NCBI RefSeq assembly: GCF_001375535.1
Contig: NZ_LN831197.1
Location: 225,184-263,148 of the forward strand
DNA: 37,965 nucleotides
Source: Bacillus niameyensis
GTDB taxonomy: Bacteria > Bacillota > Bacilli > Bacillales > Bacillaceae_C
Direction: 5' to 3'
Shown: positions 1-37,931 of the stretch, in pieces
How positions within the stretch are numbered: position 1 is the stretch's first letter
How the letters are laid out: each line of letters starts with the position of its first letter
The notes under the pieces: generated by a model
Told to the model about the DNA's origin: nothing
Seen by the model: only the letters and a program-made list of their open reading frames with translations
Databases searched by the model: none
Position numbers and translations under genes: made by a program

Positions 1-3000
1 TTTCTCTATCCAAGAGTATTTTTCTCTATCCAAGAGTATTTTTCTCTATCCAAGAGTATTTTTCTCTATCCAAGAGTATTTTTCTCTATCCAAGAGTATT
101 TTTCTCTATCCAAGAGTATTTTTCTCTATCCAAGAGTATTTTTCTCTATCCAAGAGTATTTTTCTCTATCCAAGAGTATTTTTCTCTATCCAAGAGTATT
201 TTTCTCTATCCAAGAGTATTTTTCTCTATCCAAGAGTATTTTTCTCTATCCAAGAGTATTTTTCTCTATCCAAGAGTATTTTTCTCTATCCAAGAGTATT
301 TTTCTCTATCCAAGAGTATTTTTCTCTATCCAAGAGTATTTTTCTCTATCCAAGAGTATTTTTCTCTATCCAAGAGTATTTTTCTCTATCCAAGAGTATT
401 TTTCTCTATCCAAGAGTATTTTTCTCTATCCAAGAGTATTTTTCTCTATCCAAGAGTATTTTTCTCTATCCAAGAGTATTTTTCTCTATCCAAGAGTATT
501 TTTCTCTATCCAAGAGTATTTTTCTCTATCCAAGAGTATTTTTCTCTATCCAAGAGTATTTTTCTCTATCCAAGAGTATTTTTCTCTATCCAAGAGTATT
601 TTTCTCTATCCAAGAGTATTTTTCTCTATCCAAGAGTATTTTTCTCTATCCAAGAGTATTTTTCTCTATCCAAGAGTATTTTTCTCTATCCAAGAGTATT
701 TTTCTCTATCCAAGAGTATTTTTCTCTATCCAAGAGTATTTTTCTCTATCCAAGAGTATTTTTCTCTATCCAAGAGTATTTTTCTCTATCCAAGAGTATT
801 TTTCTCTATCCAAGAGTATTTTTCTCTATCCAAGAGTATTTTTCTCTATCCAAGAGTATTTTTCTCTATCCAAGAGTATTTTTCTCTATCCAAGAGTATT
901 TTTCTCTATCCAAGAGTATTTTTCTCTATCCAAGAGTATTTTTCTCTATCCAAGAGTATTTTTCTCTATCCAAGAGTATTTTTCTCTATCCAAGAGTATT
1001 TTTCTCTATCCAAGAGTATTTTTCTCTATCCAAGAGTATTTTTCTCTATCCAAGAGTATTTTTCTCTATCCAAGAGTATTTTTCTCTATCCAAGAGTATT
1101 TTTCTCTATCCAAGAGTATTTTTCTCTATCCAAGAGTATTTTTCTCTATCCAAGAGTATTTTTCTCTATCCAAGAGTATTTTTCTCTATCCAAGAGTATT
1201 TTTCTCTATCCAAGAGTATTTTTCTCTATCCAAGAGTATTTTTCTCTATCCAAGAGTATTTTTCTCTATCCAAGAGTATTTTTCTCTATCCAAGAGTATT
1301 TTTCTCTATCCAAGAGTATTTTTCTCTATCCAAGAGTATTTTTCTCTATCCAAGAGTATTTTTCTCTATCCAAGAGTATTTTTCTCTATCCAAGAGTATT
1401 TTTCTCTATCCAAGAGTATTTTTCTCTATCCAAGAGTATTTTTCTCTATCCAAGAGTATTTTTCTCTATCCAAGAGTATTTTTCTCTATCCAAGAGTATT
1501 TTTCTCTATCCAAGAGTATTTTTCTCTATCCAAGAGTATTTTTCTCTATCCAAGAGTATTTTTCTCTATCCAAGAGTATTTTTCTCTATCCAAGAGTATT
1601 TTTCTCTATCCAAGAGTATTTTTCTCTATCCAAGAGTATTTTTCTCTATCCAAGAGTATTTTTCTCTATCCAAGAGTATTTTTCTCTATCCAAGAGTATT
1701 TTTCTCTATCCAAGAGTATTTTTCTCTATCCAAGAGTATTTTTCTCTATCCAAGAGTATTTTTCTCTATCCAAGAGTATTTTTCTCTATCCAAGAGTATT
1801 TTTCTCTATCCAAGAGTATTTTTCTCTATCCAAGAGTATTTTTCTCTATCCAAGAGTATTTTTCTCTATCCAAGAGTATTTTTCTCTATCCAAGAGTATT
1901 TTTCTCTATCCAAGAGTATTTTTCTCTATCCAAGAGTATTTTTCTCTATCCAAGAGTATTTTTCTCTATCCAAGAGTATTTTTCTCTATCCAAGAGTATT
2001 TTTCTCTATCCAAGAGTATTTTTCTCTATCCAAGAGTATTTTTCTCTATCCAAGAGTATTTTTCTCTATCCAAGAGTATTTTTCTCTATCCAAGAGTATT
2101 TTTCTCTATCCAAGAGTATTTTTCTCTATCCAAGAGTATTTTTCTCTATCCAAGAGTATTTTTCTCTATCCAAGAGTATTTTTCTCTATCCAAGAGTATT
2201 TTTCTCTATCCAAGAGTATTTTTCTCTATCCAAGAGTATTTTTCTCTATCCAAGAGTATTTTTCTCTATCCAAGAGTATTTTTCTCTATCCAAGAGTATT
2301 TTTCTCTATCCAAGAGTATTTTTCTCTATCCAAGAGTATTTTTCTCTATCCAAGAGTATTTTTCTCTATCCAAGAGTATTTTTCTCTATCCAAGAGTATT
2401 TTTCTCTATCCAAGAGTATTTTTCTCTATCCAAGAGTATTTTTCTCTATCCAAGAGTATTTTTCTCTATCCAAGAGTATTTTTCTCTATCCAAGAGTATT
2501 TTTCTCTATCCAAGAGTATTTTTCTCTATCCAAGAGTATTTTTCTCTATCCAAGAGTATTTTTCTCTATCCAAGAGTATTTTTCTCTATCCAAGAGTATT
2601 TTTCTCTATCCAAGAGTATTTTTCTCTATCCAAGAGTATTTTTCTCTATCCAAGAGTATTTTTCTCTATCCAAGAGTATTTTTCTCTATCCAAGAGTATT
2701 TTTCTCTATCCAAGAGTATTTTTCTCTATCCAAGAGTATTTTTCTCTATCCAAGAGTATTTTTCTCTATCCAAGAGTATTTTTCTCTATCCAAGAGTATT
2801 TTTCTCTATCCAAGAGTATTTTTCTCTATCCAAGAGTATTTTTCTCTATCCAAGAGTATTTTTCTCTATCCAAGAGTATTTTTCTCTATCCAAGAGTATT
2901 TTTCTCTATCCAAGAGTATTTTTCTCTATCCAAGAGTATTTTTCTCTATCCAAGAGTATTTTTCTCTATCCAAGAGTATTTTTCTCTATCCAAGAGTATT

Positions 3001-3447
3001 TTTCTCTATCCAAGAGTATTTTTCTCTATCCAAGAGTATTTTTCTCTATCCAAGAGTATTTTTCTCTATCCAAGAGTATTTTTCTCTATCCAAGAGTATT
3101 TTTCTCTATCCAAGAGTATTTTTCTCTATCCAAGAGTATTTTTCTCTATCCAAGAGTATTTTTCTCTATCCAAGAGTATTTTTCTCTATCCAAGAGTATT
3201 TTTCTCTATCCAAGAGTATTTTTCTCTATCCAAGAGTATTTTTCTCTATCCAAGAGTATTTTTCTCTATCCAAGAGTATTTTTCTCTATCCAAGAGTATT
3301 TTTCTCTATCCAAGAGTATTTTTCTCTATCCAAGAGTATTTTTCTCTATCCAAGAGTATTTTTCTCTATCCAAGAGTATTTTTCTCTATCCGAGAGTATT
3401 TTTCTCTATCCGAGAGTATTTTTCTCTATCCGAGAGTATTTTTCTCT
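1..3447. repeat. Giant 20-bp tandem repeat array (at least 172 copies)
   Basis: The unit TTTCTCTATCCAAGAGTATT repeats without interruption from base 1 to 3440 (172 full units), followed by a partial unit TTTCTCT to 3447. Copies are identical except the last three (3381-3440), which read CGAGAG where the others read CAAGAG. The window opens inside the array, so its true length is unknown. Each junction makes a T5 tract, giving one tract per 20 bp, close to two helical turns. Each unit also holds a short dyad, CTCT-N5-AGAG. The forward strand has no stop in any frame but also no ATG, GTG or TTG; the reverse strand has TAG in every frame. It sits just past the rnhC stop, where Bacillus genomes normally have the convergent pheT/rnhC junction (pheT is not visible). 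There are no unique spacers, so this is not a CRISPR array. Function unknown. Confidence 0.97.
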
Positions 3448-20594: not shown

Positions 20595-20613
20595 GAATTC
20601 AATTTCATAAAAA

Positions 20614-20862
20614 TGATAGAGGCGCAAATCTTTAAGAGTAGAAACCAGGAGAAGTACGGGCTTCCTTGATAGGTTTTGAAAGGGAAGGTTTGCCGAAGTG
20701 GAAGAATGCCCATAACATTGTTCTGCTGGTTCTGCGTTTAAGAAATGTAGAATTGTCAAAGTGGAAAATATCACTTTGGAGAGCTATCTCATGTTGTGAT
20801 CTATAAACAATAACTAGTACATTTCACAAGCAATGAGAAGAAACTCTCATTGCTTTTTTATG
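20614..20862 (+). ncRNA. Lysine riboswitch (L box) upstream of lysC
   Basis: The untranslated leader carries the L-box landmarks in order: GATAGAGGCGCAAATC at the 5' side, TTAAGAGTA, GAAAGGGAAGG, TTGCCGAAGTGG, GGTTCTGC, and the closing GGAGAGCTATCTCATG. Its CTATC pairs with the 5' GATAG to form P1. A terminator hairpin at 20828-20861 ends the leader. Lysine binding should favour termination and lower lysC expression. The order and spacing match the B. subtilis lysC leader. Confidence 0.94.
20828..20861 (+). terminator. Riboswitch-controlled terminator
   Basis: AAGCAATGAGA and TCTCATTGCTT form an 11-bp stem with a 6-nt loop, followed by a T run. It is the expression platform of the L box. Confidence 0.92.
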
Positions 20863-20899: not shown

Positions 20900-22135
20900 A
20901 TGATAATGGAAACGATCGTGATTAAATTCGGTGGCTCATCATTAAGCACCACTGATAAAATTAAGACTGTAGCAAAACGGATATTGGATGTAAAAAAACA
21001 AGGTAATCAAGTAGTAGTTGTTGTTTCTGCCATGGGAAAAACAACAGACCAACTTCTAAATTTGGCAGGACAATTAACAGAACATCCAGCTAAAAGAGAG
21101 ATGGATATGCTCCTTTCCACTGGAGAACAAGTATCCATCTCACTGCTAACAATGGCACTTACTGAAATGGGAGAAGAGGCGATTTCATTTACTGGTTGGC
21201 AAGCAGGAATTATCACCGAAAGTGTTCATTCTAAAGCACGTATAGTAGATATTAAAGTCGAAAAAATGAAAAAGCATTTAAGTACTGGAAAAATTATTGT
21301 TGTAGCAGGTTTCCAAGGGGTTACAGAGGATGGAGAGATTACAACACTTGGAAGAGGTGGATCTGACACGACAGCAGTTGCAATAGCAGCAGCTCTTGAA
21401 GCAAAACGCTGCTTAATTTGTACCGACGTTACAGGAGTATTTACATCAGATCCAAGATATGTTTCTGATGCTCGGAAACTACCGTCTATCTCTTATGGAG
21501 AAATGTTAGAATTGGCCAATCTTGGAGCCGGAGTTCTACACCCGAGAGCAGTTGAATTTGCAAAAAATTATCAAGTTGATCTTGAGGTAAGATCTAGTAC
21601 CGAAAATGAAGAAGGAACAGTCATTGAGGAGGAAGCATCTATGGAATCTAACTTAGTAGTAAGAGGGGTAGCATTTGAAAAAGGTATTACAAGATTAACA
21701 GTGTTTGGATTGAAAAATGAATGGAATGGATTATCTGCTATCTTTTCTGCCTTAGCTCAAAATCAAATTGACGTCGATATTATTATTCAAAGCCAAACAG
21801 ATGCAAAAATGAATTTATCATTTTCAATTAAGAGTAAGGACTTAGAAGATGCTGTGCAAGTTTTGGAACATCAAAAAGAAGTGATTGGTTTTGAAAGTAT
21901 TGAATATGAAGCCAATTTGGCTAAAGTATCGATTGTAGGATCAGGAATGGTTTCAAATCCAGGTGTTGCTGCACAAATGTTTACAGCTTTAGCAAATGAT
22001 GAAATCCAAGTGAAGATGGTCAGCACATCTGAAATTAAAATCTCCGTAGTTGTTGGCGAAGAAAAAATGCAGAAAGCTGCACAAATTCTTCATGGGGAAT
22101 TTAAATTAAATGAGGTTACTCAAACGATCAATTAA
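20900..22135 (+). CDS. lysC: Aspartokinase II (lysine-sensitive)
   Basis: Phosphorylates aspartate, the first step to lysine, diaminopimelate and dipicolinate. The protein is 411 aa. The kinase domain opens with VIKFGGSSLS and contains STGEQVSISLL and TTLGRGGSDTTAVAIAAAL. The C-terminal half carries two ACT domains (GITRLTVFGL, AKVSIVGSGMVSNPGVAAQM). I kept ATG 20900, 5 nt after GGAAGGG; ATG 20906 (METIVIKFGG) fits the family equally well and is a real alternative. Expression is under the lysine riboswitch. An internal start for the beta subunit is present (see 21641). Confidence 0.95.
   Translation: MIMETIVIKFGGSSLSTTDKIKTVAKRILDVKKQGNQVVVVVSAMGKTTDQLLNLAGQLTEHPAKREMDMLLSTGEQVSISLLTMALTEMGEEAISFTGWQAGIITESVHSKARIVDIKVEKMKKHLSTGKIIVVAGFQGVTEDGEITTLGRGGSDTTAVAIAAALEAKRCLICTDVTGVFTSDPRYVSDARKLPSISYGEMLELANLGAGVLHPRAVEFAKNYQVDLEVRSSTENEEGTVIEEEASMESNLVVRGVAFEKGITRLTVFGLKNEWNGLSAIFSALAQNQIDVDIIIQSQTDAKMNLSFSIKSKDLEDAVQVLEHQKEVIGFESIEYEANLAKVSIVGSGMVSNPGVAAQMFTALANDEIQVKMVSTSEIKISVVVGEEKMQKAAQILHGEFKLNEVTQTIN
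21626..22135 (+). other. lysC: Internal ribosome site and start of LysC beta subunit
   Basis: GAGGAGG at 21626-21632 lies 8 nt before the in-frame ATG at 21641 (MESNLVVRGVAF). B. subtilis aspartokinase II is an alpha2-beta2 enzyme whose beta chain starts at the equivalent internal Met. The same site is preserved here and would give a 164-aa ACT-domain chain. Confidence 0.82.
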
Positions 22136-23072: not shown

Positions 23073-23705
23073 GTGGCGGGGAAAAATGAATTTTATTGGC
23101 GCAGGCTGCATTCTTTATTAGGGGTAATACCTGTTGGTCTTTTTTTAGTGCAGCATCTTGTGATCAATCACTTTGCTACACAAGGAGAAGAGGCATTTAA
23201 TAAGGCTTCAGGTTTCATGGGAAATCTACCATTTGTCATCTTCCTAGAATTCGGAGTTATTTACATACCGCTATTGTTTCATGCTATTTTAGGGATTTAT
23301 ATTGCTTTTACTGCAAACAACAATCCAATTAGATTAGGATGGTTCCGAAACTGGATGTTTACCATTCAACGAATTTCCGGAATTATATTGTTGGCATTTA
23401 TCGCATGGCATGTTTGGGAAACACGTATTCAGAAAGCGTTTTTTGGTGTAGAAGTGAATTTTAAAATGATGGAAGAGATTTTGTCGAATCCAGTCGTTTT
23501 AATTCTATACATTATCGGAATTCTCTCAGCTACCTTTCATCTATCAAATGGTCTATGGTCATTTCTTGTTAGGTGGGGGATTACGCAATCACCTAAATCC
23601 CAGCGAATTTCATCTTGGGTAATGGGCATTGTGTTTGTCGTGCTTACTATCATTGGGGTGCGTGCAGCATTAGCGTTTGTCTATCCGGATCTATTCGTTG
23701 GATAA
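23073..23705 (+). CDS. sdhC: Succinate dehydrogenase cytochrome b558 subunit
   Basis: Membrane anchor of complex II that carries two b hemes and reduces menaquinone. The protein is 210 aa with five transmembrane helices. Heme-ligand histidines typical of the Bacillus type are visible in RRLHSLLG and VQHLVINH (helix I), LFHAILG (II), AWHVWETR (III) and TFHLSNGLW (IV). The start is GTG, with AAGGGGG 6 nt upstream. It is first in the sdhCAB operon, but a 254-nt gap separates it from sdhA. Confidence 0.94.
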   Translation: MAGKNEFYWRRLHSLLGVIPVGLFLVQHLVINHFATQGEEAFNKASGFMGNLPFVIFLEFGVIYIPLLFHAILGIYIAFTANNNPIRLGWFRNWMFTIQRISGIILLAFIAWHVWETRIQKAFFGVEVNFKMMEEILSNPVVLILYIIGILSATFHLSNGLWSFLVRWGITQSPKSQRISSWVMGIVFVVLTIIGVRAALAFVYPDLFVG

Positions 23706-23959
23706 ATTGAAAAGTGTAACCACCTGGTGTAACAACAGCTAAAGATACGCTCTCAAGTTGGCCTGATATAAAGGGAACACGGTGAGACGATGGTGACTTA
23801 TTGTAGAAAAAAGTCGCTGCTCGCAGGAGCTAGTCAATAGAAACTTGTAAGCGCCCGCTTAGGGACGCATGAACTTTTAAGGTAAGGAAACACGATGGTT
23901 ATGTTGCTTAGAGCAACTAGACAATTTGAATTACGGTTAAAAAAGGAGTGAGTCACACG
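23706..23959 (+). other. Long sdhC-sdhA spacer with possible RNA structure and short ORFs
   Basis: Spacing between these genes is usually a few dozen nt; here it is 254. The stretch contains a direct repeat GTGTAAC (23717 region), a hairpin GCGCCC (23851-23856) with GGGACGC (23862-23868), and two similar segments containing GGGAACACG and GGAAACACG. Two tiny ORFs could be read: 23790-23840 (16 aa) and 23895-23951 (18 aa, with AAGGTAAGGA upstream and its TGA next to the sdhA ribosome site). No known riboswitch motif is recognised, and no promoter is clear. Confidence 0.45.
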
Positions 23960-25720
23960 ATGAGTAATGGGAAAATCATCGTGGTCGGTGGCGGATTAGC
24001 CGGCTTGATGGCAACAATCAAAATTGCAGAAGAAGGGAAGCAAGTGGATCTTTTTTCACTTGTTCCAGTTAAACGTTCTCATTCCGTCTGTGCGCAAGGC
24101 GGAATTAATGGAGCAGTTAATACAAAAGGTGAAGGGGATTCTCCTTGGATCCACTTTGATGATACCGTTTATGGTGGCGATTTTTTAGCGAACCAGCCAC
24201 CAGTTAAAGCAATGTGTGAAGCAGCACCAGGAATTATCAATCTATTAGATCGGATGGGGGTTATGTTCAATAGGACCCCTGAAGGTTTACTTGATTTCCG
24301 CCGATTTGGTGGAACACAACATCATCGGACGGCTTTTGCCGGCGCAACAACTGGACAACAGTTGTTATATGCTTTGGACGAACAGGTGCGCCGTCATGAG
24401 GTAGCGGGCTTAGTCTCCAAATTTGAAGGCTGGGATTTCCTAGGGATTATTCAAGATGATGCTGGGGTTTGCCGTGGAGTTGTTGCTCAAAATATGACAA
24501 CGATGGAAATTCAATCATTTCCAGCTGATGCGGTCATTTTAGCAACAGGTGGACCGGGAATTATCTTCGGAAAATCAACTAACTCTGTTATTAATACAGG
24601 TTCTGCTGCTTCTATTGTTTACCAACAGGGAGCAACCTATGCAAATGGTGAATTTATTCAAATACATCCAACAGCTATACCTGGTGATGATAAATTAAGA
24701 CTTATGAGTGAATCAGCTCGTGGAGAAGGCGGTCGTATCTGGACGTATAAAGATGGGAAACCATGGTATTTCCTTGAAGAAAAATACCCAGCCTATGGAA
24801 ACCTTGTTCCTCGTGATATAGCTACACGTGAAATATTCCATGTATGTGTGGATGAGAAGCTCGGCATTAACGGAGAAAACATGGTTTATCTTGATCTTTC
24901 TCATAAAGATCCGCATGAATTAGATGTTAAACTTGGTGGAATTATAGAAATCTATGAGAAATTTACTGGTGAGGATCCACGTAAAGTTCCTATGAAAATC
25001 TTCCCAGCTGTCCACTATTCAATGGGCGGTCTCTGGGTCGATTATCAACAACATACGAATATTGAGGGCTTGTTTGCTGCTGGGGAGTGCGATTATTCTC
25101 AGCATGGTGCGAATCGTCTTGGTGCTAACTCCTTACTATCTGCTATATACGGCGGGATGGTTGCAGGTCCAGAAGCTGTCAAATACATTAATGGCCTAGA
25201 AAAGAGTCACGACTCCCTTCCTTCTTCTTTATATGATTCTGCTGTTAAAAAGGAAGAAGAAAAGTGGGCAAATATCATGTCAATGAGTGGGGAAGAAAAC
25301 GCCTATGTTCTGCATAAAGAACTTGGGGAATGGATGACAGATAACGTAACAGTTGTCCGCTATAATGACAAATTAAAAGCAACAGATGATAAGATCCTTG
25401 AATTGATGGACCGCTGGAAAAACATCAATATTAATGATACATCTAGCTGGAGTAATCAAGGTGCAATGTTTACAAGACAGCTGTGGCATATGCTACAACT
25501 AGCTCGAGTGATTACAATTGGCGCGTTAAATCGAAATGAAAGTAGAGGCGCCCATTACAAACCAGATTTCCCTGAGCGAAATGATGCAGAATGGCTGAAA
25601 ACGACAAAAGCAGATTATAATGCTAGTAAAAATACACCTGAATTCAGTTATGAAGATGTGGATGTTTCACTTATTAAACCTCGAGAACGCAACTATGCTA
25701 AGAAGAAAGAGGTGAAATAA
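23960..25720 (+). CDS. sdhA: Succinate dehydrogenase flavoprotein subunit
   Basis: Oxidises succinate to fumarate. The protein is 586 aa from ATG 23960 (AAGGAG 11 nt upstream; GTG 23948 is in the ribosome site). The dinucleotide-binding motif VVGGGLAGLMATIK (8-21) is followed by RSHSVCAQGGINGAV, with H41 the expected covalent FAD ligand. Further motifs are FGGTQHHRTAFAG, HPTAIPGDDKLRLMSESARGEGG and HYSMGGLWVDYQ, with HGANRLGANSLL near the C-terminal FAD contacts. It is nearly colinear with the B. subtilis protein and ends in KKKEVK. sdhB starts 2 nt after its stop. Confidence 0.97.
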   Translation: MSNGKIIVVGGGLAGLMATIKIAEEGKQVDLFSLVPVKRSHSVCAQGGINGAVNTKGEGDSPWIHFDDTVYGGDFLANQPPVKAMCEAAPGIINLLDRMGVMFNRTPEGLLDFRRFGGTQHHRTAFAGATTGQQLLYALDEQVRRHEVAGLVSKFEGWDFLGIIQDDAGVCRGVVAQNMTTMEIQSFPADAVILATGGPGIIFGKSTNSVINTGSAASIVYQQGATYANGEFIQIHPTAIPGDDKLRLMSESARGEGGRIWTYKDGKPWYFLEEKYPAYGNLVPRDIATREIFHVCVDEKLGINGENMVYLDLSHKDPHELDVKLGGIIEIYEKFTGEDPRKVPMKIFPAVHYSMGGLWVDYQQHTNIEGLFAAGECDYSQHGANRLGANSLLSAIYGGMVAGPEAVKYINGLEKSHDSLPSSLYDSAVKKEEEKWANIMSMSGEENAYVLHKELGEWMTDNVTVVRYNDKLKATDDKILELMDRWKNININDTSSWSNQGAMFTRQLWHMLQLARVITIGALNRNESRGAHYKPDFPERNDAEWLKTTKADYNASKNTPEFSYEDVDVSLIKPRERNYAKKKEVK

Positions 25721-25722
25721 AG

Positions 25723-26490
25723 ATGAGTACAAATAAAAAGGTAACCTTTATTATTACTCGTCAGGATAAAGCAGACTCAAAGCCATATGAAGAAAGATTC
25801 GAGTTGGATTACCGTCCAAATATGAATGTGATTTCCGCCTTGATGGAAATTCGAAGAAATCCTGTAACGGCAGAAGGTAAAAAAACTACACCAGTTGCTT
25901 GGGATATGAACTGTCTTGAGGAAGTATGCGGTGCGTGCTCTATGGTCATTAATGGCAAGCCACAGCAATCTTGTACAGCTCTTATAGACAAGCTTGAACA
26001 GCCGATACGACTAGCTCCTATGGCAACCTTCCCAGTAGTTCGGGACTTAGTTGTTGATAGAAGTAGAATGTTTGATTCATTGAAAAGAATTAAAGCTTGG
26101 ATTCCAATTGATGGAACTTATGATTTGGGTCCAGGTCCACGTATGCCTGAAAGAAGACGTCAATGGGCGTATGAGCTTTCTAAATGTATGACCTGTGGTG
26201 TCTGTCTTGAAGCATGTCCAAATGTAAATAGTAAATCTAATTTTATTGGTCCGGCGTTTTTATCGCTTGTTCGTCTTTACAATGCCCATCCAACAGGTGC
26301 AATGAACAAGGATGAGCGTTTGGAAGCCTTAATGGATGAAGGTGGAATTCAAGATTGTGGTAATTCACAAAACTGTGTGCAAGTCTGCCCGAAAGGAATT
26401 CCTCTTACAACATCGATTGCGGCTATGAACCGTGCGACTAACGTCCAAATGTTTAAAAATTTCTTTGGAAGCGACCGTATGGTAGATTAA
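25723..26490 (+). CDS. sdhB: Succinate dehydrogenase iron-sulfur subunit
   Basis: Relays electrons from FAD to the heme anchor. The protein is 255 aa. The N-terminal ferredoxin domain has CLEEVCGACSMVINGKPQQSC for the 2Fe-2S cluster. The C-terminal domain has CMTCGVCLEACP and NSQNCVQVCPKGIPL for the 4Fe-4S and 3Fe-4S clusters. The ribosome site GAGGTG lies inside the end of sdhA, so the two genes are translationally coupled. A strong terminator follows. Confidence 0.97.
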   Translation: MSTNKKVTFIITRQDKADSKPYEERFELDYRPNMNVISALMEIRRNPVTAEGKKTTPVAWDMNCLEEVCGACSMVINGKPQQSCTALIDKLEQPIRLAPMATFPVVRDLVVDRSRMFDSLKRIKAWIPIDGTYDLGPGPRMPERRRQWAYELSKCMTCGVCLEACPNVNSKSNFIGPAFLSLVRLYNAHPTGAMNKDERLEALMDEGGIQDCGNSQNCVQVCPKGIPLTTSIAAMNRATNVQMFKNFFGSDRMVD

Positions 26491-26512
26491 TCAAATTAAT
26501 CACATATTACGA

Positions 26513-26545
26513 AACAAGCGGCTTATAGTAGCCGCTTGTTTTTTA
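26513..26545 (+). terminator. Terminator of sdhCAB
   Basis: A perfect 11-bp stem, AACAAGCGGCT with AGCCGCTTGTT, has a 6-nt loop and is followed by a T run. Confidence 0.93.
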
Positions 26546-26847
26546 TTTTTCAAGGTTAATTCCTTCTAGTAAAAAGAGCAATTCACAAATAGGTCTTTAG
26601 TATTGCGATCTATTGAAATTTACCATGCGATTAACATCCAAAGGTCTAATTGAGAAAAGAGAGGCTATTACCTATTTCTTATATTTTTAAAAATTCACAA
26701 AATTGGTTGTTTTTATTTACCCATTTGTTAAGCTTTTAGTGAACTTTAAGGCAGTTATTATAGAATAATTTGTCCCAGTTCTAATACATATGAGGGGGGA
26801 AATGTGTTAGTTTTTAATGATTATTGACAAAAGGGGAGGTATATTAT
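26546..26847. other. AT-rich upstream region of the surface protein gene
   Basis: About 300 bp without a gene. I found a ribosome site, GGGGAGG (26833-26839), for the TTG start at 26848. I found no convincing sigma-A hexamer pair and no full sigma-K -10 box (CATATGAGG at 26787 lacks the final TA). A TATTATAGAAT stretch near 26756 is a weak -10 candidate. Confidence 0.4.
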
Positions 26848-29800
26848 TTGCGCAAAAAGACAAAAATTTGTTTTTTTAGAACTTTCGCTGCAATCGTTCT
26901 TATTGCTGGATTATTCAATCCAGTTGTAGCAGCAGCTGAAAATTCAGATGGAAATGTTACACTAGAGAATTCAAAAGTCGATACTTCAAATAATGTTGAA
27001 AATGTAGAAGATGATGTTTTAGGCGAAGGGGAGACTGAAAATACAAAAAACTCTGAAGCCAAAATTCCTGATCAAGAATCTGAGAAAGAGAATACTACTA
27101 TCGAGGATACTAAAAATAATGAAAACTTAGAATCCGTAAATGAAGATGAAGGCCCAAAAGGTAAAGAATCTTCAGAGGGTGAAGGAACAGAGGGAGCTGA
27201 AAGTTCAGAGGAAGAATCTTCAAATGAAGAATCTCTAAATGATAGTGAAGTACCAGCAGAAGATCCAGAAACTGAGACTGAAGAAACTAATAGTGATGGT
27301 GCAAATGAAGTAGAAGAACCAGAAAAAGATACGTCATCTAGAACCGAAGAAACTAAAAAAGAAGATTCCCCTGAAGTAGAAGAATCTGAAGCAGATGTAT
27401 CATCTGAAGTTGAAGAAGAAGTATCATCGGATGATGAAGATCTAAATGATAATTCTACATTTAATACTAGTGAAGAGAATCCTTCTTCTATTTTCGAATA
27501 TGGCGAGTTCGTTGGAAATATGATCTCACCAAATGGGGATGGAAAACATGATAATTCATCCTTAAAATTTAAGTTAAATCAAGATGCAGAGTTTGGACTT
27601 TATGTGCATGATGCAATGAATCCAAGGTCTGGTCCATATGGTAATGGTATTATTGGGGAAATAAAAGGAGTCGCTTCCTATACAGGAGGAATAGAACATT
27701 CTGTACCTATAGATGGTACATTTACACCGTTTTCTGGTAGTAAGAAAACATTAGACGACAGTGTTTACCTAGCTGTAGCGGTTGGAGACGAAGGATCATA
27801 TGGAGAAATTGGTCCGCTTATCGTTAAATCATCTGCACCAGAAGTTGTCTTTGATTCAATTGACGATGTGATTAATGCTTCAAAAATAGATATCAAAGGT
27901 AAAATTAATGATAAATTTATTGACTATTTATCCGTAATTGATTTTCGCCTTGATCAAGCGTTAGAGGCAAACTGGGAATTAGTAAATGAAAATAACGAAG
28001 TAGTTGATAAGGGAAATCTTTGGATTTTTGATGTTGAGGATACTGAGTTTGAAATTAATTTAAAGGAATTGACGACGGGTAACTACACATTAAAAGTAAA
28101 AGTTCAAGATGCATTAGGAAATGCTACTGAGGAAACTTTACCCATTACTATTGCATTTGACTTACCAGATGATATATCAGAAATTGTGACTGAGGCATAT
28201 CTGGCTAACAATGTAGTAAGTTCTTCAAATCGTTATACGTATTTACATGTAAACCTAACGGAAGAAGTAAAATTAATGGGAATCGTATGGGATGCGTTGA
28301 ATCCTACTGGTGGTCCTTTAGGGGATGGTACTTTAGGTGCTATGCTTGATGAAGATTTCCAACATTGGAATTTATTCAAATATGGTCCTGAAGAAGATAA
28401 ATTGTTTACCAGTACACGTTATTGTCCGTATGATTGGGGCTGGATGCCATGTGCGTGGGACTTAGCTGATGGGGTATATACAATTCAACTCTCTGCTATA
28501 TTAGATGATATGTTCATAGATGGAGAGATTGAAGTTGGACCGTATTTCGTTAAGGAGTCTTCTGCAACAATTGACTTTGATCCGATCAATGGTCCAATCG
28601 AGCATACTTCTCTGACAGGGAATATTTCGGATAAGTTTATTGAGTGGGCGCCTACTGTTAGGGAAGTATATGATCCAAATTATGATGTTAATGAACATTT
28701 ATTTGCATCTTATAAAGTAATGGATAAGCAAAATCAAATCGTTAAAGAGGGGCCATTAAGACTTAATCAAGATGGAACATTCACTGTGCCTGTTGGTGGT
28801 TTAACTGCTGGGAAATATACGGTTACAGTGAAAACAGGAGATGCTGGCAATAATGAGCCAACAGAAAAAAGTGTTACTTTTGAAGTAGGTAATGACGGTA
28901 CACCTACTGATCCTGAAGAACCTGAAGAATTCGATATTAATTTGACTCCTTCAACAACTGAAGAAACAGATGGAGTGGTCACTGTATCCATTGATACGAA
29001 TAGTGATACAGAAATTACTTCAATAAAATGGTTAAAGGGTAATAAAACTGTTGAAGATTTTACGGAAGCAGGAAACGTAATTAATGTAAACAACCCTACA
29101 TTCCAAGTTGAAGAAAATGGAACATATACAATTTTTGCTCGGAATATTGACGGAATAACAGCTGTTAGTACTATTTCCATTAACAATATTGTTGAACCTG
29201 GAGAACCCGGTGAACCTGGAGAACCTGGAGAACCTGGAGAACCCGGAGAACCTGGAGAACCCGGAGAACCTGGAGAACCTGGAGAACCTGGAGAACCTGG
29301 AGAACCCGGAGAACCTGGAGAACCTGGAGAACCTGGAGAACCTGGAGAACCTGGAGAACCTGGAGAACCTGGAGAACCTGGAGAACCTGGAGAACCTGGA
29401 GAACCTGGAGAACCTGGAGAACCTGGAGAACCTGGAGAACCTGGAGAACCTGGAGAACCTGGAGAACCTGGAGAACCTGGAGAACCTGGAGAACCTGGAG
29501 AACCTGGAGAACCTGGAGAACCTGGAGAACCTGGAGAACCTGGAGAACCTGGAGAACCTGGAGAACCTGGAGAACCTGGAGAACCTGGAGAACCTGGAGA
29601 ACCTGGAGAACCTGGAGAACCTGGAGAACCTGGAGAACCTGGAGAACCTGGAGAACCTGGAGAACCTGGAGAACCTGGAGAACCTGGAGAACCTGGAGAA
29701 CCTGGAGAACCTGGAGAACCTGGAGAACCTGGAGAACCTGGAGAACCTGGAGAACCTGGAGAACCTGGAGAACCTGGAGAACCTGGAGAACCTGGAGAAC

Positions 29801-31599
29801 CTGGAGAACCTGGAGAACCTGGAGAACCTGGAGAACCTGGAGAACCTGGAGAACCTGGAGAACCTGGAGAACCTGGAGAACCTGGAGAACCTGGAGAACC
29901 TGGAGAACCTGGAGAACCTGGAGAACCTGGAGAACCTGGAGAACCTGGAGAACCTGGAGAACCTGGAGAACCTGGAGAACCTGGAGAACCTGGAGAACCT
30001 GGAGAACCTGGAGAACCTGGAGAACCTGGAGAACCTGGAGAACCTGGAGAACCTGGAGAACCTGGAGAACCTGGAGAACCTGGAGAACCTGGAGAACCTG
30101 GAGAACCTGGAGAACCTGGAGAACCTGGAGAACCTGGAGAACCTGGAGAACCTGGAGAACCTGGAGAACCTGGAGAACCTGGAGAACCTGGAGAACCTGG
30201 AGAACCTGGAGAACCTGGAGAACCTGGAGAACCTGGAGAACCTGGAGAACCTGGAGAACCTGGAGAACCTGGAGAACCTGGAGAACCTGGAGAACCTGGA
30301 GAACCTGGAGAACCTGGAGAACCTGGAGAACCTGGAGAACCTGGAGAACCTGGAGAACCTGGAGAACCTGGAGAACCTGGAGAACCTGGAGAACCTGGAG
30401 AACCTGGAGAACCTGGAGAACCTGGAGAACCTGGAGAACCTGGAGAACCTGGAGAACCTGGAGAACCTGGAGAACCTGGAGAACCTGGAGAACCTGGAGA
30501 ACCTGGAGAACCTGGAGAACCTGGAGAACCTGGAGAACCTGGAGAACCTGGAGAACCTGGAGAACCTGGAGAACCTGGAGAACCTGGAGAACCTGGAGAA
30601 CCTGGAGAACCTGGAGAACCTGGAGAACCTGGAGAACCTGGAGAACCTGGAGAACCTGGAGAACCTGGAGAACCTGGAGAACCTGGAGAACCTGGAGAAC
30701 CTGGAGAACCTGGAGAACCTGGAGAACCTGGAGAACCTGGAGAACCTGGAGAACCTGGAGAACCTGGAGAACCTGGAGAACCTGGAGAACCTGGAGAACC
30801 TGGAGAACCTGGAGAACCTGGAGAACCTGGAGAACCTGGAGAACCTGGAGAACCTGGAGAACCTGGAGAACCTGGAGAACCTGGAGAACCTGGAGAACCT
30901 GGAGAACCTGGAGAACCTGGAGAACCTGGAGAACCTGGAGAACCTGGAGAACCTGGAGAACCTGGAGAACCTGGAGAACCTGGAGAACCTGGAGAACCTG
31001 GAGAACCTGGAGAACCTGGAGAACCTGGAGAACCTGGAGAACCTGGAGAACCTGGAGAACCTGGAGAACCTGGAGAACCTGGAGAACCTGGAGAACCTGG
31101 AGAACCTGGAGAACCCGGTGAACCTGGAGAACCTGGAGAACCTGGAGAACCTGGAGAACCCGGTGAACCTGGAGAACCTGGAGAACCTGGAGAACCTGGA
31201 GAACCTGGAGAACCTGGAGAACCCGGTGAACCTGGAGAACCCGGTGAACCTGGAGAACCTGGAGAACCCGGTGAACCTGGAGAACCTGGAGAACCTGGAG
31301 AACCTGGAGAACCCGGAAAACCTGGGGAACCTGGAGAACCCGGAAAACCTGGGGAGCCTGGAGAACCTGGGGAGCCCGGAAAACCTGGAAAGCCAGAACA
31401 ATCAGGTGATCCAAAAGACCCTGGAAAATCCAATAATAATGGTTCTAATAAAAACACATCAAAAACCGATACTGATGGGAAACAACTGCCAAACACAGCT
31501 ACCCAAACATTTAATTTACTCGCAATTGGAGTAGCATTACTTATGATTGGTGGTCTCCTCTCTTTTATCGCTTATAGACGAAGACAAGACACAATGTAA
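26848..31599 (+). CDS. Giant collagen-like LPNTA cell-wall-anchored surface protein
   Basis: Probable sortase-anchored extracellular stalk protein of 1583 aa from TTG 26848 (GGGGAGG 8 nt upstream; TTG 26824 has none). Layout: signal peptide (about 1-30: RKK, then a hydrophobic core ending AAA); an acidic Glu/Ser/Thr low-complexity region (about 31-210); two related ectodomains (about 215-437 and 438-681), the first with ISPNGDGKHDN; an Ig-like segment (about 690-782); then residues 783-1516, made of 244 contiguous Gly-X-Pro triplets after one Glu-Pro (240 GEP, 4 GKP near the end). A Ser/Asn/Lys linker follows, then LPNTA (1547-1551), a hydrophobic helix and RRRQDTM. LPNTA is the motif known for class D sortases (B. 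anthracis SrtC). No sortase gene is in the window. The binding target is unknown. The gene interrupts the usual sdhB-gerE neighbourhood. Confidence 0.9.
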   Translation: MRKKTKICFFRTFAAIVLIAGLFNPVVAAAENSDGNVTLENSKVDTSNNVENVEDDVLGEGETENTKNSEAKIPDQESEKENTTIEDTKNNENLESVNEDEGPKGKESSEGEGTEGAESSEEESSNEESLNDSEVPAEDPETETEETNSDGANEVEEPEKDTSSRTEETKKEDSPEVEESEADVSSEVEEEVSSDDEDLNDNSTFNTSEENPSSIFEYGEFVGNMISPNGDGKHDNSSLKFKLNQDAEFGLYVHDAMNPRSGPYGNGIIGEIKGVASYTGGIEHSVPIDGTFTPFSGSKKTLDDSVYLAVAVGDEGSYGEIGPLIVKSSAPEVVFDSIDDVINASKIDIKGKINDKFIDYLSVIDFRLDQALEANWELVNENNEVVDKGNLWIFDVEDTEFEINLKELTTGNYTLKVKVQDALGNATEETLPITIAFDLPDDISEIVTEAYLANNVVSSSNRYTYLHVNLTEEVKLMGIVWDALNPTGGPLGDGTLGAMLDEDFQHWNLFKYGPEEDKLFTSTRYCPYDWGWMPCAWDLADGVYTIQLSAILDDMFIDGEIEVGPYFVKESSATIDFDPINGPIEHTSLTGNISDKFIEWAPTVREVYDPNYDVNEHLFASYKVMDKQNQIVKEGPLRLNQDGTFTVPVGGLTAGKYTVTVKTGDAGNNEPTEKSVTFEVGNDGTPTDPEEPEEFDINLTPSTTEETDGVVTVSIDTNSDTEITSIKWLKGNKTVEDFTEAGNVINVNNPTFQVEENGTYTIFARNIDGITAVSTISINNIVEPGEPGEPGEPGEPGEPGEPGEPGEPGEPGEPGEPGEPGEPGEPGEPGEPGEPGEPGEPGEPGEPGEPGEPGEPGEPGEPGEPGEPGEPGEPGEPGEPGEPGEPGEPGEPGEPGEPGEPGEPGEPGEPGEPGEPGEPGEPGEPGEPGEPGEPGEPGEPGEPGEPGEPGEPGEPGEPGEPGEPGEPGEPGEPGEPGEPGEPGEPGEPGEPGEPGEPGEPGEPGEPGEPGEPGEPGEPGEPGEPGEPGEPGEPGEPGEPGEPGEPGEPGEPGEPGEPGEPGEPGEPGEPGEPGEPGEPGEPGEPGEPGEPGEPGEPGEPGEPGEPGEPGEPGEPGEPGEPGEPGEPGEPGEPGEPGEPGEPGEPGEPGEPGEPGEPGEPGEPGEPGEPGEPGEPGEPGEPGEPGEPGEPGEPGEPGEPGEPGEPGEPGEPGEPGEPGEPGEPGEPGEPGEPGEPGEPGEPGEPGEPGEPGEPGEPGEPGEPGEPGEPGEPGEPGEPGEPGEPGEPGEPGEPGEPGEPGEPGEPGEPGEPGEPGEPGEPGEPGEPGEPGEPGEPGEPGEPGEPGEPGEPGEPGEPGEPGEPGEPGEPGEPGEPGEPGEPGEPGEPGEPGEPGEPGEPGEPGEPGEPGEPGEPGEPGEPGEPGEPGEPGEPGEPGEPGEPGEPGEPGEPGEPGEPGEPGEPGEPGEPGEPGEPGEPGEPGEPGEPGEPGEPGKPGEPGEPGKPGEPGEPGEPGKPGKPEQSGDPKDPGKSNNNGSNKNTSKTDTDGKQLPNTATQTFNLLAIGVALLMIGGLLSFIAYRRRQDTM
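29194..31395 (+). repeat. 9-bp coding repeat, 244 Gly-Glu/Lys-Pro codon triplets
   Basis: The unit is GGA GAA CCT. Bases 29308-31107 hold 200 identical copies. Variants (CCC for Pro, GGT or GGG for Gly, GAG for Glu, AAA/AAG for Lys) occur only near the two ends: before 29308, and after 31113. Each unit contains CCTGG, a CCWGG site. Because the period is a multiple of three, other frames stay open too and give long spurious ORFs. Confidence 0.97.
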
Positions 31600-32115: not shown

Positions 32116-32227
32116 GATGTTAACTTCTTTATTTTTTGCATTTATTCATTATTAAGATGGTTTCAGAATAAACATAGATGAAGGTTGTCCTTCATAGACA
32201 ATTTATTATAAGACAAGGATGAGGGCG

Positions 32228-32842
32228 ATGAAACCATTCATAATAAAAAATGGACTAGTTATGACCGGAGGCATTACCCAAGGGTTAGGGATGGGTTTAT
32301 TTTTATTTCCTCATTCAATTCCATCTGGAGGAGCTGGAGGTATAGCTGTTCTTTTGAATCATTTTTTTAATATTCATATGGGACTTGCTCTATGGATGGT
32401 TAATCTTTCCATGCTAGGACTAGCCCTAAAATATTTAGGAAAAAAAACAGTTATATGGATTATAATCGGGATCACGATCACTTCATTATCGATTTATTTT
32501 TTTGAAGAAACTATTGCCATTGTAAATCGTAATTTATATTATGATCTAATTATTGGCTCTGTTTTCCTTGGTACAGGCATTGGGATCCTAATGCGACAAG
32601 GAGTGTCCAACGGTGGAGTAGGTGTAATAGCCTTTATTATTTCCAATGGCAGAAATATCCTCCCAGGCAAGCCACTTTTTGTTATGAACTGTTGTATATT
32701 TGTAATTACTGCAGCGATTATCAATTGGAAAATTATTGTACTTGCTCTCGTCAGCCAATGGATATCAACAAAGTTGGTTGATCTTATTTGCAGTTTTGAA
32801 TTTTATCAATCGTATACGTTGGGGTGGCGTAAAAAACCTTAA
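32228..32842 (+). CDS. YitT-family membrane protein
   Basis: Polytopic membrane protein of 204 aa from ATG 32228 (AAGGA 8 nt upstream; ATG 32219 overlaps it). It shows the YitT (formerly DUF161) repeats: [20 protein letters not shown] followed by [21 protein letters not shown], and in the second half [20 protein letters not shown]. It has about five or six helices. It lacks the C-terminal DUF2179 domain found in the 280-290-aa YitT proteins. Substrate and function are unknown. Its TAA overlaps the stop of the convergent MFS gene. Confidence 0.82.
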
Positions 32843-36776: not shown

Positions 36777-37931
36777 TTAGGCTAACCGCTGTTGAACAAT
36801 CCAATGCTGAGCTAAATCGATCAATTTTGTCCACCGTGCTGGCATGGTAGGAAGACCCGATAACGCTGTGTTCACAACAGGTACCTTTCCTTCTAAAGAG
36901 GCATGTGGCCGCAGAAAATTAAAATAAGCGACAAACAAAGTGACATAGGAAACAGAACCATGTTCTGAACCAAAGCCATGCGTGGAACGATAGTTCCCCT
37001 TGAAAGTACGATTCAATCTCTCGATGATTTGTTTTAGCGGTCTGTATTCAGTTGAAATAGGATCCTCATTGGTAAGCCCAATCACTTGTTTCACATCAAA
37101 TTTGATGTCGTTCTGGGCAAAAAAGTGTTGAGCTAAAAGATAGATGGGATTTCCATCCACTACGAAGGTAAGATCTTTAGGGATATCTTGCATTTTAACT
37201 AACACTTCATCAATGGCACGAATAGCCGTTACCGTGTCGCGATTTGGAGACACTGGATAAGAGAGAATGATCTTCTTTACTGCATCAAAAAAGAAAAATA
37301 AATAGTGCCACTTTCCATTGACTCGGATATAGGTTTCATCGCCACAGAATTGATCAGAAAGCTCATAGGGATAATGATCCACATACGGTTTAAGCAATAG
37401 AGCCACACTGTTTTCGTAATTCAAAATGGTTTGGTGGGAAATTGCAACACCATGGACATCTTGCATAATGGCTGCTGTCTTACGGGCTGAAAGCCCATAA
37501 TTCACATGATAGGTTAAGATCAGACCCAAAACGTGTGGCGAAGCATAAATCCTAGATAAATCGACTTTTGGTAACTCGAATGATCTCTTAGATAAAGGTC
37601 TAAAATCAATGTGAAACTGACGAAAGATATACCTCAATTTAAATGCTTGAGGATCTTTCTTAAACCGCTTTTTCTCTTTTTTAGACATGGTCTTCAGTTT
37701 CTTTCGATAATAAGAACAGTCATTATTTCTACATTTGTAGACAGAGAAATCTTTTCTTTCTTTAATCTTATCAAGGGTCTTTGCACAGTGAGGGCACTTA
37801 AGAATGGCCTCTTTAGAAAAGCGATTCTTATCACTGAAAAGGCAAGAACAAACCTTGCATTGAAACTGCCCTTTATCACCATTATTGGCGTACAGATAAT
37901 CTGATGGAGCTCCACACTGTGGACAGTTCAT
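36777..37931 (-). CDS. DDE-type transposase with N-terminal zinc ribbons
   Basis: Transposase of 384 aa that catalyses movement of its element. Zinc-ribbon cysteines appear at the N-terminus (CPQCG, CKVC, CPHC, CRNNDC), followed by a helix-turn-helix region (NYGLSARKTAAIMQDVHGVA). The catalytic core has GDETYI (Asp), LTFVVDGNP (Asp) and LKQIIERLNRTFK (Glu), giving a DDE triad. The C-terminus, AYFNFLRPHASL, is typical of IS6/rve-type transposases. It looks intact. I see no good ribosome site before its ATG. It lies downstream of ssuC in convergent orientation. Confidence 0.88.
   Translation of the reverse strand: MNCPQCGAPSDYLYANNGDKGQFQCKVCSCLFSDKNRFSKEAILKCPHCAKTLDKIKERKDFSVYKCRNNDCSYYRKKLKTMSKKEKKRFKKDPQAFKLRYIFRQFHIDFRPLSKRSFELPKVDLSRIYASPHVLGLILTYHVNYGLSARKTAAIMQDVHGVAISHQTILNYENSVALLLKPYVDHYPYELSDQFCGDETYIRVNGKWHYLFFFFDAVKKIILSYPVSPNRDTVTAIRAIDEVLVKMQDIPKDLTFVVDGNPIYLLAQHFFAQNDIKFDVKQVIGLTNEDPISTEYRPLKQIIERLNRTFKGNYRSTHGFGSEHGSVSYVTLFVAYFNFLRPHASLEGKVPVVNTALSGLPTMPARWTKLIDLAQHWIVQQRLA

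Follow-up and report, generated by a model that had tools for sequence, protein, structure and literature searches.

Does a wall-anchored protein whose stalk is an unbroken series of Gly-X-Pro triplets carry a collagen, or a spacer of another kind? A gene of Bacillus niameyensis (assembly GCF_001375535.1, contig NZ_LN831197.1), which we analysed within a 37,965-nucleotide stretch of DNA (the window), raises this question. A preliminary description of the locus had given a 1583-residue product with 244 uninterrupted triplets (240 GEP, 4 GKP), and retranslation reproduced the length, the counts and the coordinates exactly. We consider it probable, at roughly three chances in four, that the protein presents twin Ig-like-type modules, with no enzyme domain recognised among them, held off the wall on a slippage-expanded, polyanionic, PPII-like stalk.

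Architecture and anchoring of the wall protein

A terminator-like hairpin sets the gene apart from the succinate dehydrogenase genes to its left (Table 1), and a scan for sigma-70 promoters upstream of the gene returned nothing on the coding strand. Translation begins at a TTG codon; TTG also occupies the corresponding start position in the homologue from genome G153, described below.

Table 1. Positions of the wall-protein gene, its parts and other features, in window coordinates
Feature	Position	Strand	Residues	Basis or remark
20-bp tandem array	1-3447			Intergenic; contig C6:224996-228630
Lysine riboswitch aptamer	20609-20794	+		RF00168, 122.6 bits; precedes the aspartokinase-type gene
Aspartokinase-type gene	20900-22135
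Succinate dehydrogenase domain genes	23073-26490			Left neighbours (Pfam)
Terminator-like hairpin	26511-26542	+		After sdhB; single pattern-scan hit, shuffles giving 0.4 (sd 0.7)
Ribosome-binding-like AGGGGAGG	26832-26839	+		By eye; lies before TTG 26848
Wall-protein gene	26848-31599	+	1583 aa	Translated from TTG 26848
Signal peptide	26848-26937	+	~1-30	By eye: basic start, hydrophobic core, AAA
Acidic low-complexity N-terminal segment	26938-27492	+	~31-215	From sequence; acidic segment in G153 too
Module 1, SPNGDG-type plus Ig-like	27493-28182	+	~216-445	Big_13/Y_Y_Y matches at 397-435; homologous to module 2
Module 2	28183-28917	+	~446-690	C-terminal halves of long frames (G038, G148, G054, G412) are 39-43% identical
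Open frame opposite the gene	28767-31496	-	909 aa	By-product of the 9-bp repeat, as are long frames in other phases
Terminal Ig-like module	28918-29196	+	691-783	Also precedes stalks of other anchored proteins
(GEP)240/(GKP)4 stalk	29200-31395	+	785-1516	9-bp minisatellite, 244 units
Polar linker	31396-31485	+	1517-1546
LPNTATQ sorting signal, hydrophobic stretch, basic tail	31486-31596	+		NF058670, 42 bits (cut-off 32); LPNTA encoded at 31486-31500
YitT-family gene	32219-32842			Right neighbour (Pfam)
Transposase-like frame	36777-37931	-		Near the window's right end; IS6, IS66 and IS3 profile matches, each below cut-off

Two ectodomains had been proposed. Two mutually homologous modules are present (28% identity, E 1e-16), but the count omitted an acidic segment of ~185 residues and a third, Ig-like module. 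The modules, together with the Ig-like module, share homology with subtilases anchored to the wall, in the C-terminal half of those proteins: modules 2 and 3 are ~39-41% identical to their counterparts in two such proteins, L004 and L005, which likewise carry a stalk of Pro-rich repeats. These stalks are (PPGDGEQ)n, however, and L005, in which the sorting signal LPKTS was seen, contains a Peptidase_S8 domain, whereas none occurs among the Pfam matches of the window protein (E up to 0.01). A sequence search of solved structures returned weak matches only (best E 0.023). Binding or scaffolding is our guess at the putative role of the modules.

The LPNTA ending reported earlier was confirmed: the motif is followed by a hydrophobic stretch and a basic tail, and the signal scores above the cut-off of the NCBIfam LPxTATN model. 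Two sortase genes were found in the genome, one of class D and LPxTATN-specific (L001; NF058671, 248 bits, cut-off 140), the other of class B (L002); the right neighbour of the wall-protein gene was ruled out as the sortase by its YitT-family assignment. The window protein is thus a predicted wall-anchored substrate of the class D enzyme. In the account of an alkaliphilic Bacillus given in PMC3617157, enzymes are predicted to make up most of the class D substrates; in the window protein, Pfam recognises no catalytic domain. Among 34 genomes of the family (own included), LPxTATN-type signals were found in 24 at E up to 0.001 and in 22 above the curated cut-off. The B. niameyensis genome holds two LPxTATN-type proteins, the second of which (L132; G000:C6:2026369-2029394) lies in a frame of 3913 aa that contains long repeated domains; its Pro-rich stalk, short and of the KPEPN type, leads into LPNTATN.

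Stalks of related proteins

A homology search of the ectodomains, which the preliminary description had suggested, returned both a full-length homologue and a recurring module. Among 397 genomes of the order, own included, 28 matched the ectodomain, and besides the own genome only G153 matched nearly the whole of it (9-578 of 579). The G153 protein (L251), a 971-aa frame from a genome in another family, with 33% identity over 816 columns (E 3e-104), matches from the TTG to the Ig module, sharing the acidic segment, the two modules and the Ig-like module, and it too ends in LPNTATQT. Its stalk starts alike, with AEPGEPGEP, but then continues mainly as (EDPTDP)n, measures 162 aa and is almost free of Gly.

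The Ig module precedes an anchor in 15 other proteins (14 distinct proteins parsed by script, and L258 by eye), and the stalk in between is Pro-rich in all 15 and mostly acidic. None of these stalks contains a Gly-X-Y run of more than two triplets, and the 14 that were measured span 29-162 aa. Several have Lys-rich ends, one (L256) is Thr/Asn-rich and another (L253) mixes acids with Lys. Outside this count stand eight loci with no anchor in view (L004, L006, L010, L011, L268, L269, L270, L271) and five with no anchor motif in the longest frame (L007, L254, L257, L264, L266). Stalks are interchangeable behind the module, and the proteins that host it also vary, including the subtilase L005 and a GDSL-type esterase (L008; both by Pfam). 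Because all 15 stalks lack the Gly period, we regard that period as peculiar to the window protein and a Pro-rich, mostly acidic spacer as common.

We also surveyed pre-anchor stretches in 60 regions selected from the search matches, in 59 of which an anchor was parsed (in L170, an LPxTG signal). They vary: a number are Pro-, Gly- and acid-rich, some of these being tandem repeats at selected loci, and still others lack Pro repeats and are acidic or rich in Lys. In the congener G005, L131 carries (NEPGEP)n before LPNTATA, with Pro at every third and Gly at every sixth residue. A Gly-X-Pro run of at least three triplets occurs in only one of the 59, L112 (GDP, seven triplets); outside the 59, a run of 26 Gly-X-Pro triplets stands ahead of LPKTG in L034 of G033. 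The Pro-rich, mostly acidic stalks at the same place in relatives, along with the congener's (NEPGEP)n, favour the polyproline-like spacer that had been offered as an alternative to a triple helix. Some relatives, whose pre-anchor stretches are neither Pro-rich nor acidic repeats, count against it, as do L256 and L253.

By analogy, the nearest experimentally described counterpart is the Pro/Gly-rich region of Staphylococcus epidermidis Aap. The Aap repeat is of the AEPGKP type. As in the window protein, the region lies between ectodomain and sorting signal, but Aap is presented with an LPDTG signal and with domains of the lectin-like and G5-E kinds (PMC9802226). The region is described as a disordered, compaction-resistant chain whose hydrodynamic radius withstands changes in pH, temperature and solvent (PMC10618399, citing Yarawsky 2017). 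S. epidermidis SesJ, likened here by its description, is also sortase-anchored and is drawn with a collagen-like sequence in the place that a Pro-rich wall-spanning region takes in others, but it differs in its MSCRAMM-type A and B domains (PMC7403478). Periscope Proteins are likewise wall-anchored on stalks of highly identical tandem repeats, but the class is defined in PMC9704523 by individually folding repeat domains, whereas the unit here is a tripeptide. In the window protein, the corresponding Pro-rich part of low complexity comprises aa 784-1546, ~763 residues that separate the outer domains from the sorting signal, nearly all of them (GEP)n. The stalk is most likely of a design already known, of which the GEP tract is an extreme version.

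Charge and the collagen question

The calculated charge of the tract is ~-236 and that of the mature protein -352, with a pI of 4.05. These values, and the often acidic stalks of relatives, suit a reading in which the tract is itself functional, as a polyanion at the surface, binding cations or controlling surface charge and hydration, its reach being a by-product. We judge this unlikely: cation binding is putative, the tract occupies an ordinary spacer position, and some ordinary spacers, such as that of L256, are not acidic.

Read instead as a true bacterial collagen, the tract would join three chains in a triple helix of ~210 nm and display trimeric heads. Its Gly-X-Y periodicity is perfect across 244 triplets, and Pfam Collagen matches at 447.9 bits (cut-off 27.2), a score that counts against the spacer. 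So does the constancy of Gly and Pro in all 24 variant units, as a triple helix would need, although these units may reflect few events. The Pfam match follows from Gly at each third residue. More specific models fall short, with NCBIfam Scl1/SclA at 205.7 bits (cut-off 400) and Scl2/SclB at 239.9 bits (cut-off 325). Streptococcal Scl1 and Scl2, compared here at the level of sequence, likewise join their outer domain to the wall anchor through a Gly-X-Y tract, but the tract of the window protein consists of one repeated acidic triplet.

Composition separates the tract further from collagens. Pro is confined to Y, and an acid stands at X in 240 of the 244 triplets; the lack of Pro at X and of Thr at Y is unlike the figures for Gram-positive collagens reported in PMC8968730. 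It is also unlike the relatives' long collagen-like runs, which have Thr or Ala, not Pro, at Y: in 13 sense runs of at least 30 triplets from their collagen-family loci, Y was Pro in 0-9% and Thr in 32-100% (L035 and L047, apparently antisense readings of other repeats, were dropped from this count). In L039, where the run is shorter (19 triplets), Pro takes Y in 37%. With several of these loci incomplete, the fact that no anchor is in view there is weak evidence.

Charge crowding argues in the same direction. In the work described in PMC7824840, peptides that carry at least five like charges fail to homotrimerise, and the genome contains no second collagen-type gene that might supply a basic partner chain. 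It also has no match to PF13640 (2OG-Fe oxygenase, prolyl-hydroxylase type), the one hydroxylase family searched. Because two of three charge-crowded peptides were stabilised by higher salt and lower pH, according to PMC4030969, a triple helix is unlikely rather than impossible. The loss of the Gly period from homologous stalks and the like-charge argument nonetheless led us to reject it as the main reading; the collagen helix of the preliminary description was not borne out, and we hold a true collagen to be quite improbable.

A minisatellite of uniform units

Residues 785-1516 are the sole Gly-X-Pro run of at least three triplets in the protein. The 2196 bp that encode them are homogeneous: 220 of the 244 units are spelled GGAGAACCT, and 200 consecutive identical units form a perfect 1800-bp run (29308-31107), with the variant units located towards both ends of the tract. 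From the codon usage of 16 other window genes, this spelling would be expected in ~20 of the 240 GEP units. The 24 variant units comprise 20 synonymous changes and four of Glu to Lys, the resulting GKP triplets sitting at the C-terminal end; none alters Gly or Pro. Such uniformity beyond codon preference points to slippage or unequal exchange.

A repeat of this size, with so many identical units in succession, exceeds a short read and is prone to slippage, which invites the suspicion that the true tract is much shorter or of mixed length and that 244 is an outcome of assembly or culture. We think this quite unlikely, since this one contig accounts for 4.67 Mb of an assembly that totals 4.68 Mb in 6 contigs, which suggests long reads, and variant units are kept at both ends.

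The reach of roughly 200 nm given earlier holds for full extension, the contour of the 732 residues being 227 nm as PPII and 210 nm as a triple helix; it does not hold for a flexible chain, which would span only ~21-66 nm end to end under assumed persistence lengths of 1-10 nm.

The length is no record for Gly-X-Y triplets, because a Gly-X-Thr-type run in L036, from the same family, has at least 298 and reaches the edge of the available stretch. The tract-plus-anchor query matched in 176 of 299 genomes of the order; among the loci examined, which were the best matches, the longest other Gly-X-Pro runs have 40 (L225, no adjoining anchor), 32, 27 and 26 triplets. Longer ones may exist, both because only best-match loci were examined and because draft assemblies may collapse repeats. 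A tract-plus-anchor scan of the named genomes gave at least 16 loci, of which L205, L206 and L207 contain 15, 8 and 17 consecutive Gly-X-Pro triplets in the sense reading; an ectodomain search there yielded 39 stretches that fitted the pattern, none of them confirmed. The exact string GEPGEPGEP occurred in no paper in the literature searched.

None of 15 congeners matched the ectodomain. Nor was it found downstream of sdhB in 12 congeners (10 kb each) or in one more (2.7 kb); two contigs end within 1.1 kb. The frames downstream of sdhB differ between species, which makes gain at a variable site plausible. Plasmids gave no match to the ectodomain by tblastn, nor to the tract region by megablast, a weak search owing to low-complexity filtering.

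The window contains a second, intergenic repeat, the 20-bp array at its left end, with ~177-181 copies. Of the 172 units that lie within the window, 169 are identical, and weaker matches occur elsewhere in the own genome and in 4 of 15 congeners. A 120-nt piece of this array, taken as RNA, folds better than its shuffles (z -3.4).

Discussion

Our preferred reading, Ig-like-type modules on an expanded polyanionic spacer, would begin with a secreted protein joined to the cell wall by the class D (LPxTATN-type) sortase. A short EPGEPGEP seed beside the Ig module may have been the starting point of the spacer, and one 9-bp unit would then have been multiplied by slippage into a long one. That the G153 protein shares this stalk start and then continues with a different expansion, (EDPTDP)n, supports such a history. 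In all likelihood the tract is an extended coil of a single strand, biased towards PPII and strongly anionic, which would keep the modules clear of the wall, and its copy number should shift easily, in three-residue steps and without frameshift. A hybrid reading, in which the stalk is a single PPII chain while its glutamates are unscreened and forms homotrimeric triple helices under cations or salt, as a salt-switched collagen grown by minisatellite, strikes us as very unlikely.

A strong collagen profile match can thus belong to a Pro-rich wall stalk in which Gly happens to stay in register, and any such match in an anchored protein calls for a comparison with homologues. The EPGEPGEP seed, with two expansions in two homologues, is a clean case of spacer change by minisatellite slippage, and the tract is a test case, supplied by nature, for whether triple helices are open at all to a Gly-X-Pro polymer of like charges.
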